Assembly (NCBI GenBank): GCA_020161015.1
Contig: JAIUOT010000058.1
Span: 1-64,000 of the forward strand
Direction of reading: 5' to 3'
Source of the DNA: Actinomycetota bacterium
GTDB taxonomy: Bacteria > Actinomycetota > Actinomycetes > Propionibacteriales > Propionibacteriaceae
DNA length: 64,000 nt
Within the stretch, counting starts at the first letter, position 1, and the number at the start of each line of letters is the position of its first letter. The notes beneath the pieces are model-generated. The model was not told the DNA's origin. It was given only the letters and a program-made list of their open reading frames with translations, and did no database searches. The translations under genes and the position numbers were made by a program. This document shows, piece after piece, positions 12,912 through 18,179 of the stretch.

Positions 12912-13196
12912 CTACTCGGCCGCGATCGCCTCGTGGTGGCGGACCACTTCCGCGACCACGAAGTTCAGCCACTTCTCGGCGAATTCCGGGTCGAGGTTGG
13001 CGCCGTGCGCCAGTTCGCGCAGCCGGGCGATCTGCTGCACCTCGCGCTCGGGGTCGGCGGCCGCCAGCCCGCGCTCGCGCTTGAGGAGGCCGACCCGCTG
13101 GGTGATCTTGAACCGCTCGGCGAGCAGGCAGATGATCGCCGCGTCGAGGTTGTCGATGGAGCCGCGGAGCCGCTCGAGTTCGGGGTCGCTCTGCAC
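12912..13196 (-). CDS. Chorismate mutase, AroQ class
   Basis: A 94-residue all-helical enzyme converting chorismate to prephenate. Family-typical residues are visible: LRGSIDNLDAAIICLLAERF, then the Lys-containing stretch KITQRVGLLKRERGL and DPEREVQQIARL. The GTG start at 13196 is supported by the −10 box TAGGCT (13203–13208) six bases upstream. That box contains the stop codon of the upstream 96-residue gene, so the promoter is embedded in the neighbour's end. No other aromatic-pathway gene is nearby. Confidence 0.93.
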   Translation of the reverse strand: MQSDPELERLRGSIDNLDAAIICLLAERFKITQRVGLLKRERGLAAADPEREVQQIARLRELAHGANLDPEFAEKWLNFVVAEVVRHHEAIAAE

Positions 13197-13205
13197 GCGT
13201 TCAGC

Positions 13206-13496
13206 CTAGCGGGGGCCGAGCACGCCCTGCGGCAGCAACCCGAGCCTCGCCAGCGCGTAGGACAGCGCGGCGCCGACGACGAGCCCGAGCCCCAGGCGCG
13301 CGATCGTCCGCGGTTGCCACGACGTCGCAGGGATGAACCAGAACGCTCCGGCCACCACGATGCCGGCCACGCCGGCGATGATCGCGTAGAGCGGTTCCAC
13401 CAGCCCGGCGATGAGCCCGATCGCCAGCCCTGCCATGGTCAAGGTGGCGGCGGCGCCGCCGACCGTGGTCTTCGGGTCGTAGGAGAGTGGGCTCAT
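13206..13496 (-). CDS. Small membrane protein of unknown function
   Basis: A 96-residue protein with about four hydrophobic helices (residues 12–32, 34–55 and 65–85 are clearest) and a short cytoplasmic N-terminus (MSPLSYDPKTTVGGAAAT). I do not recognise a family. The start is supported by TAGAGT (13503–13508) six bases upstream of ATG, a leaderless arrangement. It lies between cysE (20 bases away) and chorismate mutase, all on the minus strand but probably each with its own promoter. Confidence 0.75.
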   Translation of the reverse strand: MSPLSYDPKTTVGGAAATLTMAGLAIGLIAGLVEPLYAIIAGVAGIVVAGAFWFIPATSWQPRTIARLGLGLVVGAALSYALARLGLLPQGVLGPR

Positions 13497-13515
13497 GGCA
13501 GCACTCTAGGACCGC

Positions 13516-14070
13516 TCAGGCGATGACGTCGCCCGGGGTCGTGTTCGCGGGAATGCCGGTCACCACGGAGTTCGGCGGCACGTCCTTCACCACGAGGGCG
13601 TTGGCGCCGATCTTGGTGCCGTCGCCGATCGTGATCGGCCCGATGATCTTGGCGCCGGCTCCCAGCAGCACGTTGTTGCCGATCGTCGGGTGGCGCTTGA
13701 ACCTGCCCCGGCTGCGCCCGCCGAGGGTGACCTGGTGGTACATCAGCACGTCGTCGCCGATCTGCGCGGTCTCGCCGATCACGACGCCCATCCCGTGGTC
13801 GATGAAGAAGCGTCGCCCGATGACCGCGCCCGGGTGGATCTCGATGCCGGTGAGCCCCCTGGACCACTGCGAGAGCAGTCGGGCCAGGGGGCGCAGCGCC
13901 GGGGTGGTCGTCCACAGCCGGTGGCACAACCGGTGGATCCACACCGCGTGGATCCCGGGGTAGGTCAGCGCGACCAGCACCTTCGAGGTGGCGGCCGGGT
14001 CCTCCCGCATCGCGGTGTCGAGGTCCTCCTGGATGCGCGCCCACGCGCGTCGGGGCAGGGTCAGGTGCAC
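13516..14070 (-). CDS. cysE: Serine O-acetyltransferase
   Basis: A 184-residue enzyme making O-acetylserine for cysteine synthesis. The left-handed beta-helix of hexapeptide repeats spans residues 80–165. It carries the active-site region [20 protein letters not shown] followed by [21 protein letters not shown]. The N-terminal helical part is short, as in many Gram-positive and actinobacterial CysE proteins. The GTG start shares one base with the cysK stop (TAGTG), so it is translated by coupling after cysK. It is the last gene of the metY–cysK–cysE operon. Confidence 0.95.
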
Positions 14071-15002
14071 TAGTCCAGTAGATCCGCGTACAGCACGGTG
14101 GACAAGTACCTCTCTCCGAAGGATGGGACGACGACCACGATGGTCTTGCCCGCGTTCTCCTCCCTGGCGGCGAGCTCGCCGGCCGCGGCGAGCGCAGCAC
14201 CGGAGGAGATGCCGACCAGCAGGCCCTCCTCACGGGCGGCCCTGCGGGCCCACTCCACCGCGGTCTCGCTGGACTGCGGCAGCACCTCGTCGATCACCGA
14301 CCGGTCGAGGATGTCGGGCACGAAGTTCGCCCCGATGCCCTGGATCTTGTGCGGGCCGGGCTGGCCGCCGGACAGCAGCGGGGACTCGGCCGGTTCGACG
14401 GCGACGATCCGGACCTCCGGCTTGCGCTCCTTCAGCACCTGGCCCACACCGGTGATCGTGCCGCCGGTGCCGACGCCGGCCACCACGTAGTCGACGGTGC
14501 CGTCGGTGTCGGCCCAGATCTCCTCCGCCGTGGTGCGCCGGTGGATGTCGGGGTTGGCCGGGTTGGCGAACTGGCGGGCCAGCACCGCTCCGGGGGTCTC
14601 TGCCGCGATCTGCTCCGCGCGGGCGACCGCGCCCTTCATGCCCTCCGGGCCCGGGGTGAGCACCAGCTCCGCGCCGAAGGCCCGCAGCAGCTCCCGCCGC
14701 TCCTTCGACATCGTCTCGGGCATCGTCAGGATGACCTTGTAGCCGCGCGCCGCGCCCACGAACGCGAGCGCGATCCCGGTGTTGCCCGAGGTGCCCTCCA
14801 CGATCGTGCCGCCCGGCTGGAGTTCACCGGACGCCTCGGCGGCGTCGATGATCGCCACGCCGATGCGGTCCTTCACCGAGTTCGCGGGGTTGTAGAACTC
14901 CAGCTTCGCCAGCACCAGCGCGGTGCTGTCGCCGTAGAGCCGGTTGATCTTCACCAGCGGGGTGCGCCCGATGAGCCGGGTCGCGTCCTCGAAGTACGCC
15001 AT
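14070..15002 (-). CDS. cysK: Cysteine synthase (O-acetylserine sulfhydrylase A)
   Basis: A 310-residue PLP enzyme forming cysteine from O-acetylserine and sulfide. The PLP lysine is in [11 protein letters not shown] (about residue 44). The substrate loop [13 protein letters not shown] and the phosphate-binding [10 protein letters not shown] are intact. The C-terminus is the short bacterial form. AAAGGCGG lies about seven bases before ATG. It is 46 bases downstream of metY and overlaps cysE by one base, so expression should follow the metY leader. Confidence 0.97.
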
Positions 15003-15048
15003 GGTCGTCAGTCCGCCTTTTCTTTGTCGTGTCGTCGGTTGTTGTCGG

Positions 15049-16332
15049 TCAGATCCGGGCCAGCGCCTGGTCGAGGTCGGCGATCAGGTCGTCGACGTGC
15101 TCGATGCCGAGGCTGAGGCGCACCATCTCCGGGGCCACGCCGGCCGCGACCAGTTCGTCCTCGGTCAGCTGGGAGTGGGTCGTCGTCGCGTTGTGGATCG
15201 CGAGCGACTTCGCGTCCCCGATGTTCGCCAGGTGCGAGAACAGCTCCAGCGACTCGATGAAGGTCGAGCCGGCCTCGCGTCCGGCCTTCAGCCCGAAGGC
15301 CAGGATGCCGCCGTAGCCGCGCCCGGTGAAGACCCGGTCGGCCACGGCCTTGTACGGGGAGGAGTCGAGGCCCGGGTAGTTCACCCAGGCCACCTTCTCG
15401 TGGCCCTCGAGGTAGGTCGCCACGGCGAGGGCGTTGGCCGAGTGGCGCTCGAGGCGGAGGTGGAGGGTCTCCAGCCCCTGGAGGAACAGCCAGGAGTTGA
15501 ACGGGGAGACCGCCGCGCCGGTGTTGCGCAGCAGCACGGTGCGCGCCCGGATGATGTAGGCGGCCGGGCCGGCGGCGTCGGTCCACACCACGCCGTGGTA
15601 GGCCGGGTCCGGCGCGGTGAGGCCGGGGAAGCGGTCGGCGTGGGCGGCCCAGTCGAAGTTCCCCGAGTCGACGATGATGCCGCCGACCGACGTCCCGTGG
15701 CCGCCGATGTACTTGGTCGCGGAGTGGACGGCGACGTCGACGCCGTGCTCGAACACCTTCGCCAGGATCGGGGTGGTGACGGTGGCGTCCACGATGAACG
15801 GCAGCCCGAGGGCGTGCGCGGCCTCGCTCCAGGCGTCGAGGTCGATCACGTTGATGGCCGGGTTGCCGATCGTCTCGCCGAACACCAGGCGGGTCCGGTC
15901 GTCGACCGCCGCCGCGAGGTCCCCGGGCTTGTTCGGGTCGACGAAGCGCACGGTCACCCCGTACTGGGGCAGGGTGTGGGCGAACAGCGCGTAGGTGCCG
16001 CCGTAGAGCGTCGACAGCGCGACGATGTTGTCACCGGCGTAGGTCAGGTTCAGCACCGCGTAGGTGATGGCCGCGGCGCCGGAGGCGGTGGCCAGGGCTC
16101 CGACGCCCCCCTCGAGCGCGGTGAGCCGGGTCTCGAACACGCTCTGGGTCGGGTTCATGATCCGGGTGTAGATGTTGCCCGGCACCCGCAGGGCGAACAG
16201 GTCGGCGGCGTGCTCGGTGTCGTCGAACACGTACGAGGTGGTCTGGTAGATCGGCACCGCGCGGGCGTTGGTGGCCGGGTCGGCCTCCTCCTGTCCGGCG
16301 TGGACGCTCAGGGTGTCGGGATGGTAGGACAT
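15049..16332 (-). CDS. metY: O-acetylhomoserine sulfhydrylase (Cys/Met metabolism PLP enzyme)
   Basis: A 427-residue PLP enzyme of the gamma-family that joins O-acetylhomoserine with sulfide to give homocysteine. The PLP lysine lies in [20 protein letters not shown] (about residue 210). The N-terminal [20 protein letters not shown] and length above 420 favour the O-acetylhomoserine sulfhydrylase branch over cystathionine gamma-synthase. AGGAG (16337–16341) precedes the ATG by four bases. The gene is first in an operon with cysK and cysE. Its 190-base leader contains a cysteine-rich small ORF, which suggests control by cysteine supply. Confidence 0.95.
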
Positions 16333-16449
16333 GTCGCTCCTGGTTGTGCTGCGTTTGCTGGACGGCCTTCGTGGCCGCCCGAGGGCATGGGTGAGGGGTC
16401 CCGCGTGGGGATCCGATGGTGGTGTCGTCGGTGTTTCGGGCGCGGCTGG
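16333..16449 (-). promoter_or_regulatory. metY 5' leader downstream of the Cys uORF
   Basis: The untranslated stretch between the uORF stop and metY. It holds a hairpin (GGCGGCC at 16373–16379 with GGCCGTC, five-base loop) and, just before the ribosome binding site, the sequence GCACAAC (16343–16349) followed by C and AGG of AGGAG. These are complementary to the two Cys-codon runs of the uORF. A switch is inferred, not shown. Confidence 0.45.
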
Positions 16450-16521
16450 TCAGCGCATTCGACAACAGGCCATCGACGGCGCACAACAGCAACACATGGT
16501 TGCGGGGCTCGTCGAGGTCAT
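16450..16521 (-). CDS. Cysteine-rich leader peptide (putative cysteine-sensing uORF) for metY–cysK–cysE
   Basis: A 23-codon ORF ending in TGA, too short for routine gene calling. Residues 10–13 are four consecutive Cys and residues 19–20 two more. Met lies at 9, 17 and 22, so nine of 23 residues are sulfur amino acids. There is no ribosome binding site, but a −10 box TACCCT (16528–16533) ends six bases before the ATG and a −35 box TTGACC (16552–16557) sits 18 bases further up, so the transcript should begin at the start codon. It lies 117 bases upstream of metY on the same strand. Cys-rich leaderless uORFs that respond to cysteine are described in mycobacteria. The function here is inferred from position and composition. 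Confidence 0.75.
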
Positions 16522-16527
16522 GGCTGG

Positions 16528-16557
16528 AGGGTAGCGGCGCGTCCGTTGAACGGTCAA
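16528..16557 (-). promoter_or_regulatory. Promoter of the metY leader transcript
   Basis: Minus-strand −35 TTGACC (16552–16557) and −10 TACCCT (16528–16533) with an 18-base spacer. The predicted start of transcription coincides with the first base of the leader-peptide ATG (16521). Confidence 0.7.
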
Positions 16558-16625
16558 CCGTGTCTTGCCATCCGAGAGCGGGCAGGCGTCCGGCGCCCCG
16601 GTGCCGCGGCCCTAGACTTCCCGCC

Positions 16626-18179
16626 ATGAGCGCAGATCACGATCTGGTGCTGGTCGTCGACTACGGCGCCCAGTACGCCCAACTCATCGCCCGGCGGGTC
16701 CGTGAGGCGAGGGTCTACTCCGAGATCGTCCCGCACACGATGCCGGTCGCGGAGGTGCTGGCCCGCGGGCCGAAGGCGGTCATCCTCTCCGGCGGGCCCA
16801 GTTCGGTGTACGAGCCCGGCGCCCCGCAGCTGGACGCGTCCCTGCTCGCTGCCGGCGTGCCGGTCTTCGGCATCTGCTACGGCTTCATGGCGATGGCGCA
16901 GGCGCTCGGCGGGACCGTCGCCCGTACCGGCCAGCGCGAGTACGGCCGCACCCGCGTCGAGGTGCTCGCCCCGGGACGACTGCTGGAGGGCCTGCCGTCC
17001 GAGCTCACCTCCTGGATGTCCCACGGCGACGAGGTCACCGCCGCCCCGGCTGGCTTCACCGTCACCGCCCGCTCACCGCGCGCGACCGTCGCCGCCTTCG
17101 AGGACGCGGACCGCCGCCTGGCGGGCGTCCAGTGGCACCCGGAGGTGCTGCACTCCGAGCACGGCCAGCGCGTGCTGGAGCACTTCCTCTACGACCTCGC
17201 CGGCTGCCGTCCCACCTGGACGTCGGCCAACATCGCCGACGAGCAGGTCGCCCGCGTCCGGGCCGAGGTCGGGGATGCGCGCGTGCTCTGCGCCCTGTCC
17301 GGCGGCGTCGACTCCGCGGTGGCGGCGGCGATCGTCCAGCGGGCGATCGGCGACCAGCTCACGTGCGTGTTCGTCGACCACGGCCTGCTGCGTGAGGGCG
17401 AGGCCGAGCGCGTGGAGCAGGACTTCGTCGCCTCCACCGGGGTGCACCTCGTCGTCGCGAACGAGCAGGAACGGTTCCTGGGCGCGCTCGCCGGGGTGAG
17501 CGACCCGGAGGCCAAGCGCAAGATCATCGGGCGGGAGTTCATCCGGACCTTCGAGGACGCGGCGCGCCGGGTCAACGCCGAAGGGCCGATCGACTACCTC
17601 GTGCAGGGCACCCTCTACCCCGACGTGGTCGAGTCCGGGGGCGGCGAGGGCGCGGCCAACATCAAGAGCCACCACAACGTGGGCGGCCTTCCCGACGACC
17701 TCCAGTTCCGGCTCATCGAGCCGCTGCGCACCCTGTTCAAGGACGAGGTGCGCGAGGTCGGTCGCCAGCTGGGCCTCCCCGAGCACATCGTTGGCCGGCA
17801 CCCGTTCCCCGGGCCCGGCCTGGGCATCCGCATCGTGGGGGCCGTGGACGCGGAGCGGCTGCGCATCCTGCGGGCCGCCGACGCGATCGTGCGGGCCGAG
17901 ACCACCGCCGCCGGGCTCGACGGCGCGATCTGGCAGTTCCCCGTCGTGCTTCTGGCCGACGTCCGCTCCGTCGGCGTCCAGGGCGACGGGCGCACCTACG
18001 GGCACCCGATCGTGCTGCGCCCGGTCTCCAGCGAGGACGCGATGACCGCCGACTGGAGCCGCCTGCCCTACGACCTGCTCGAGCGGATCAGCACCCGCAT
18101 CACGAACGAGGTCCCCGAGGTGAACCGGGTGGTGCTGGACGTCACCAGCAAGCCCCCGGGCACCATCGAGTGGGAGTAG
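16626..18179 (+). CDS. guaA: GMP synthase (glutamine-hydrolysing)
   Basis: A 517-residue enzyme converting XMP to GMP. The N-terminal class I glutamine amidotransferase domain has nucleophile Cys in [12 protein letters not shown] and its His/Glu partner in GVQWHPEV. The ATP pyrophosphatase P-loop reads [13 protein letters not shown]. The C-terminal dimerisation domain has [16 protein letters not shown] at the very end. The ATG at 16626 is set by TAGACT (16613–16618) seven bases upstream, so it is probably leaderless. The longer in-frame extension would overlap the divergent metY leader. It completes the GMP branch with guaB/guaB3. Confidence 0.97.

Follow-up and report, generated by a model that had tools for sequence, protein, structure and literature searches.

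A leaderless upstream reading frame ahead of metY-cysK-cysE in Propionicimonas, a likely cysteine attenuator

Is the cysteine operon metY-cysK-cysE of a bacterium of the family Propionibacteriaceae governed by translation of a short, cysteine-rich reading frame that lies ahead of it? The locus belongs to a stretch of 64,000 nucleotides, analysed here as a whole and called the window, and the first-pass annotation read the frame as a leaderless upstream ORF (uORF) acting as a cysteine-sensing attenuator. Its account of the layout proved accurate. The uORF runs on the minus strand for 23 codons, from an ATG at 16521 to a stop codon ending at 16450, and carries cysteines at codons 10-13 and 19-20 (four and two contiguous Cys codons) and methionines, besides the start, at codons 9, 17 and 22. 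The promoter, TTGACC (16557-16552) and TACCCT (16533-16528) separated by 18 nt, ends 6 nt before the ATG, and on inspection no Shine-Dalgarno sequence was seen in front of this ATG. Judging from the position of the promoter, transcription would start with the first letter of the uORF start codon. The uORF stop is separated by 117 nt from the metY ATG at 16332, and the uORF is the first ORF ahead of the cysteine/sulfur operon, whose genes (metY, cysK, cysE) are borne out by NCBIfam models scoring above cut-off. The features of the locus are the following:

16552..16557, minus strand: -35 hexamer TTGACC, identical and separated from the -10 by 18-19 nt in 16 of 19 Propionicimonas leaders
16528..16533, minus strand: -10 hexamer TACCCT, 6 nt before the uORF ATG, from the sequence
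16450..16521, minus strand: leaderless uORF, 23 codons and stop, read from the sequence, with orthologues in relatives
16483..16494, minus strand: first Cys run, codons 10-13 (TGT TGC TGT TGT), the proposed sensing site, from the codon table of 16 genomes and the modelled position effect
16481..16487, minus strand: GUUGUGC, overlapping the Cys run and continuing past it; one minimum-energy fold pairs it with the GCACAAC that precedes the metY Shine-Dalgarno
16456..16467, minus strand: terminal box TGTTGTCGAATG (Cys-Cys-Arg-Met), codons 19-22, from its recurrence in family genomes
16333..16449, minus strand: spacer from the uORF stop to metY, 117 nt, from sequence composition and a terminator scan
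16343..16349, minus strand: GCACAAC, predicted pairing partner of the Cys run, from the minimum-energy fold
16337..16341, minus strand: AGGAG, presumed metY Shine-Dalgarno, by eye
15049..16332, minus strand: metY, O-acetylhomoserine sulfhydrylase, NCBIfam TIGR01326 above cut-off
14070..15002, minus strand: cysK, cysteine synthase A, NCBIfam TIGR01139 above cut-off
13516..14070, minus strand: cysE, serine O-acetyltransferase, NCBIfam TIGR01172 above cut-off

We scanned both strands of the 64-kb window for leaderless ORFs, defined by TANNNT 5-8 nt before ATG or GTG, a length of 8-45 codons and at least three consecutive Cys codons. The scan returned a single ORF in the window and none in 100 dinucleotide shuffles. 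TANNNT lies 6-7 nt upstream of the ATG in all 19 leaders checked for a promoter, which were picked partly by this very -10. The promoters of the window (16546-16557) and of the leaders L138, L139, L140, L142 and L143 also hold TTGA-N4-TCAA overlapping the -35, which is possibly an operator or mere kinship.

The nearest named contigs by MetY are Propionicimonas MAGs with 91% identity, one of which matches G066, a genome placed in the window's genus by genome search. Our genus sample comprised 30 genomes. In 24 of them metY is close and nearly complete, in two it is partial (L153, L154), and the remaining four contain distant relatives only. L144 starts only from residue 18 and L154 is an internal fragment, so no leader is visible in either; that of L153 can be seen, which leaves 24 readable leaders; L031-L034, from the named collection, duplicate leaders already in the set and were excluded from the counts. 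The 23-codon frame is kept without indels in 17 of the 24. Three others have a diverged leaderless ORF with at least two Cys (L148, L149, L152), one has a leaderless ORF with a single Cys (L147), and three carry no leaderless Cys ORF (L141, L151, L023). Across the 16 genus leaders measured, spacer length ranges between 112 and 150 nt, while uORF length is constant (the metY start of L138 was set 15 nt too far downstream in the codon-table and spacer sets, which touches only spacer length and composition figures). The first-pass annotation had named absence of the Cys run from close relatives as grounds for refuting the idea; the run is kept, and the idea survives this test. Short ORFs are common, and the three leaders that lack one would sit well with a chance ORF behind a promoter serving metY directly, but this explanation is barely credible in view of the empty shuffles, the frame shared by 17 leaders and the similar leaders found before other genes.

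Codon usage was tabulated for 16 genus uORFs, L153 being omitted as near-identical to L002. The Cys codons interchange between TGT and TGC, and in several genomes Cys gives way to Arg or Gly at codons 10, 12, 13, 19 or 20. Codons 16-17 read TCG-ATG in all 16 uORFs, codon 20 is TGT in 15 and codon 21 is CGA in 14. The pN/pS ratio is 0.70 for the uORF frame and 0.56 and 1.00 for the two alternative frames, which indicates that the frame is held, selection at the level of the peptide not being clear. A uORF peptide working in trans, for example by binding metal or thiols, with the cysteines mattering as protein, would explain the abundance of Cys and the constant length in 17 leaders. Yet it is highly improbable that such a peptide is what the leader provides, as pN/pS lends a functional peptide no clear support and its cysteines are replaced by Arg or Gly at several codons.

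The methionines had been given a share in the sensing by the first-pass annotation, and this part of the proposal is not supported. Codon 9 is ATG in 12 of the 16 genomes and CTG or TTG in the other four, and codon 22 is ATG in 14. Codon 17 is ATG in all 16, inside the invariant or nearly invariant TCG-ATG, which looks like a nucleotide-level constraint. A leader that senses methionine, or cysteine and methionine together, would make use of the three internal Met codons of the window uORF and would suit the homocysteine made by metY; we consider it very unlikely and rejected it on the conservation of codons 9 and 22. Nor does the locus hold a SAM riboswitch or another Rfam family: the scan of 13000-17500, with matches up to E 1, gave no riboswitch or T-box, its sole hit being a snoRNA model within metY that scored under the gathering threshold, and control by a riboswitch was rejected accordingly. 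The metY genes of the window and of 15 relatives (16 of 16) contain no Cys codon at all, which would suit an enzyme required under cysteine shortage.

The reading we prefer, and regard as probably correct, is a cis-acting, cysteine-responsive attenuator of metY-cysK-cysE that works through the leaderless uORF. On a transcript beginning, as the promoter suggests, with the A of the ATG, a 70S ribosome would start without a Shine-Dalgarno sequence. When Cys-tRNA is ample, the ribosome would clear the first Cys run, the run would pair upstream of the metY Shine-Dalgarno, and metY initiation would drop; the untranslated C-rich spacer may then also attract Rho. When Cys-tRNA is scarce, the ribosome would stall at codons 10-13 and mask the run, so that the metY initiation region stays open. 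The products of metY-cysK-cysE would then make homocysteine and cysteine, and the uORF peptide itself would be a by-product. That the stalling is caused by a shortage of charged tRNA-Cys is what we infer.

We modelled the two states in the 16 leaders by placing a ribosome either on the Cys run or at the uORF stop and computing the cost of opening the metY region from -35 to +5, relative to shuffled spacers. Opening was cheaper with the stall on the Cys run than with the stop-bound ribosome in 15 of 16 leaders, with a mean z of 3.16, although kinship among the leaders (L006 and L146, for example) means that the z values are not independent. The difference was matched by at most 2 of 100 shuffles in eight of the 16 leaders, including the window with 1 of 100. 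For the region from -20 to +13, the window gave 5.8 kcal/mol with 0 of 40 shuffles as large; over the leaders the mean z was only 1.08, and L002 and L143 were reversed. The mean effect depended on the site of the stall: it reached 4.4-5.0 kcal/mol at codons 9-15, stood at 2.0 at codon 7 and 2.9 at codon 17, fell to 0.6-0.7 at codons 19-20, and was below zero at codons 3-5 (-1.9 at codon 3). The second Cys station was rejected as the switch: with a ribosome placed at codon 19, only one of 16 leaders (L004) had an effect equalled by no more than 1 of 40 shuffles, and in the window 3 of 40 equalled it.

Compared with ribosome-free RNA, the effect of the stall was reached by at most 1 of 40 shuffles in 10 of the 16 leaders, including L013, where it is a trivial 0.1 kcal/mol; the window gave 0 of 40, and L150 was reversed. 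When the terminating ribosome was given a smaller footprint, with the stall at codon 11, the effect in the window dropped to 0.7 kcal/mol (17 of 40 shuffles), and eight of the 16 leaders were still at 1 of 40 or better. In L143, L145, L139 and L005 the modelled effect is small or nil. The model thus suggests that a stalled ribosome would free the metY initiation region, strongly in about half of the 16 leaders and, in the window, depending on the footprint assumed. As a case for translational attenuation in the genus, the RNA modelling is good but not conclusive. The leaderless cysteine-sensing attenuator of the first-pass annotation is supported by conservation and, less firmly, by modelling, and loses its methionine component.

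The predicted structures fold the Cys run against the RNA immediately ahead of the metY Shine-Dalgarno; in L002 and L006 the helices so formed are long. The duplex energy between the Cys run and the ribosome-binding region is unexceptional in the window (z -0.83, p 0.205); over the 16 leaders it averages a z of -1.35, with p below 0.05 in six, a signal too weak for duplex energy to be retained as proof of the pairing. Leaders with swapped pairing partners differ weakly (p 0.037, 15 leaders). When six leaders were aligned, compensatory changes were not consistent at any pair. A single pair in the long-range helix is altered on both sides in one leader and broken in four of the six, and the exact GUUGUGC/GCACAAC register is only partly kept. 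The stability of the whole-leader fold does not exceed that of shuffles (z -1.14). A GC-rich hairpin without a U tract is also present at 16360-16380 of the window, some 30 nt before metY.

Outside the genus, the scan took in 65 metY loci, of which 61 are distinct and two have less than 140 nt of upstream DNA; a leaderless Cys ORF was found at four: L014, L022, L066 and L021. A stretch resembling GGGCAGTGGGTGCAAAGC directly follows the uORF stop in three metY leaders, L014, L022 and L152. Among 18 other metY loci scanned with Rfam, the sole match was a SAM riboswitch before metY in an Actinomycetota MAG (L069, 3767-3891), and metY leaders therefore vary between lineages.

The composition of the spacer brings in Rho. 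Over its first 105 nt the window spacer has a C fraction of 0.47 and a G fraction of 0.24. The 16 genus leaders have a skew, (C-G)/(C+G), of 0.21-0.42, and in 14 of them it exceeds the 99th percentile of 110-nt segments of the 64-kb window. For comparison, 49 metY loci from other genera that lack a leaderless Cys uORF average 0.01 over this region, against 0.32 in the genus, and one of the 49 reaches at least 0.30 (Mann-Whitney p 3.9e-9, a value that is too small since the genomes are related). A spacer so rich in C and poor in G makes Rho a serious rival or partner. As a rival, Rho-dependent transcription attenuation would be the main output of the leader: a ribosome leaving at the stop would expose the C-rich spacer, and a stalled ribosome would alter folding or loading and thereby block Rho. 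The leader offers no intrinsic terminator with a U tract, the mark of a classical transcription attenuator (no terminator-like site in 16200-16700), as this scheme would have it, and Seliverstov 2005 (PMC1262725) put Rho forward for cys leaders in Mycobacterium and P. acnes. Composition, however, is no proof of Rho use, and the leaders with a Cys uORF in other genera are divided, L022 and L066 being as skewed and L014 (93rd percentile) and L021 (48th percentile) not. Composition alone also leaves the peak of the modelled effect at the Cys run unexplained. In the usual Rho scheme an early ribosome stall exposes downstream untranslated RNA, so that a ribosome stalled early in this uORF should expose the spacer, not hide it. 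We hold Rho to be rather unlikely as the main output; sequestration of the metY ribosome-binding site and Rho could act jointly.

The preferred attenuator has candidate counterparts before other genes. The window's own genome contains two more leaderless Cys uORFs, L230 (G000:C62) and L231 (G000:C55), each ahead of an SBP_bac_3 ABC transporter operon; their peptides, MQLATNVHARVIRFSRPAMCPCCVVTRACI and MQFSTNAHARAIRFSRPAMCLCCVVTRACI, each followed by a stop, are alike, and for both leaders the model of the ribosome-binding site gives no effect. In L214 (G102), a leaderless uORF encoding MQLTHLARCLAVHNCRTRSALCRMR and a stop precedes what by eye is a rhodanese-like gene, an arrangement reminiscent of the mycobacterial cysA2 uORF. 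The comparison of stop with stall gave no effect in the 14 leaders scored from other genera or ahead of other genes, a test of low power because the Cys codons of most of them lie near the stop and the footprints overlap; compared with ribosome-free RNA, only L162 and L222 of the 14 beat all 40 shuffles.

The least expected feature is the recurrence of the terminal box TGT-TGT-CGA-ATG, whose rare codons stay fixed ahead of several genes. The 12-mer has 39 matches in 31 of 117 family genomes and its reversed control none, a count that overstates the box because some matches are coding (by eye, a histidine kinase in L167 and a short-chain dehydrogenase in L175). Ten of the 30 matches read end leaderless ORFs by the TANNNT rule, and four more (L174, L176, L177, L182) look like leaders by eye without that -10, while the remaining 16 include coding matches; the frame of L176 (G024), lacking TANNNT at the -10, ends in MCCCRMIAAA and a stop ahead of an OsmC-like gene. 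The ten box leaders are followed by metY (L178, L181, L185), by thioredoxin-like genes (L160, L162, L163; Pfam on L162 only), by ABC transporter binding proteins (L183, L186, by eye) and, in L159 and L161, by a gene without assignment. A relaxed pattern (TGT or TGC, any CGN, then a CGY or TGY codon and TGA) has 11 matches in the 117 genomes. Eight of these are leaderless uORFs, all reading TGTTGTCGAATG(C/T)GCTGA, which form about four peptide groups and so are not independent; the other three are not such uORFs.

The codons of the box can be compared with background usage: across the long, GC-rich open frames in L001-L030, TGT accounts for 40 of 162 Cys codons and CGA for 130 of 1603 CGN codons. 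Within the genus, TGYCGNATGYGYTGA has 30 matches in 17 genomes, 16 at metY-type uORFs and one before the rhodanese-like gene of L214. All 17 of these uORF matches are TGTCGAATG, and the other 13, none of which is a leaderless uORF, mostly use other codons. An 18-mer version of the box occurs in three of 196 order genomes, one of them as a coding match (L220), and in two of 396 phylum genomes, the window's own and L222. The latter, from another family, has a leaderless uORF ending in MTNARSSLLAVTYVTTALGCRLPFARVLCCCRMR and a stop, ahead of a gene with a helix-turn-helix; Pfam, run on a 200-residue piece of that gene, gave only helix-turn-helix models. We take the gene to be a ROK gene (PF00480).

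It is possible, though we put this forward tentatively, that the terminal box is a portable, nucleotide-fixed decoding module common to the cysteine leaders of several sulfur-related operons, in which rare synonyms set the pause, and that the metY leader of Propionicimonas added an upstream Cys station for switching at the ribosome-binding site. TGT is decoded by wobble and CGA by inosine; slow decoding as the reason for the fixed rare codons is our guess. A local hairpin would account for them only in the window's close kin. Among the open-licence papers listed for the box and its peptide, no title deals with leaders, and the DNA string appears in one of them, on a human cancer gene.

Taken together, the results indicate that Propionicimonas probably has a cysteine attenuator built on a leaderless uORF, at the branch between homocysteine and cysteine. 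One genome now offers three candidate cysteine leaders, and the recurring terminal box provides a short exact sequence for locating others. It also raises the question of why rare codons are fixed where the peptide appears free to drift.

Leaderless polycysteine short ORFs are reported to attenuate mycobacterial sulfur genes through the speed of the ribosome at Cys codons. For mycobacteria, leaderless cysteine leaders were published as early as 2015 (Shell 2015, PMC4633059, as excerpted), and the polycysteine attenuators of Canestrari 2020 are described here as they appear in excerpts of citing papers (PMC9031893, PMC9094748, PMC13236596). As far as these sources go, the metY leader shares with them a leaderless short ORF, contiguous Cys codons, a place ahead of cysteine/sulfur genes and, presumably, attenuation; our genus-level RNA model would agree with stalling that opens the initiation region further down. 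It differs from them in its family, in its operon (metY-cysK-cysE), in the two separate Cys stations of its uORF and perhaps in its terminal TGT-TGT-CGA-ATG box.

A leader preceding cbs of Bifidobacterium longum or the cys operons of Mycobacterium and Propionibacterium acnes is described in the accessible part of Seliverstov 2005 (PMC1262725) among the cysteine leaders of Actinobacteria, with Cys runs near the stop, no terminator, and Rho as the proposed factor. The metY leader likewise combines a short ORF with Cys runs, lacks a terminator and has Rho as a candidate; beyond what that part of the source covers, it brings a leaderless start, metY, Propionicimonas and the predicted pairing at the ribosome-binding site. 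Lyubetsky 2014, to judge by its title, ties leaders before PF00480 or PF14340 genes to sulfur metabolism, and the CCRM leaders found here are similar in that they precede a thioredoxin-like gene and, in L222, the gene taken for ROK. The uORFC-8-2 motif before cysS of Rhodobacterales (PMC8632094, in excerpt) shares the uORF with tandem Cys codons and ribosome-mediated attenuation, and differs by ending in an intrinsic terminator, of which the metY leader has none, and by belonging to unrelated bacteria. Among the open-licence papers listed, none deals by its title with this leader, and the term 'ribulon' was not found in the open-licence literature searched. Cysteine leaders of Actinobacteria are thus already known, and the metY leader of Propionicimonas adds one to them.
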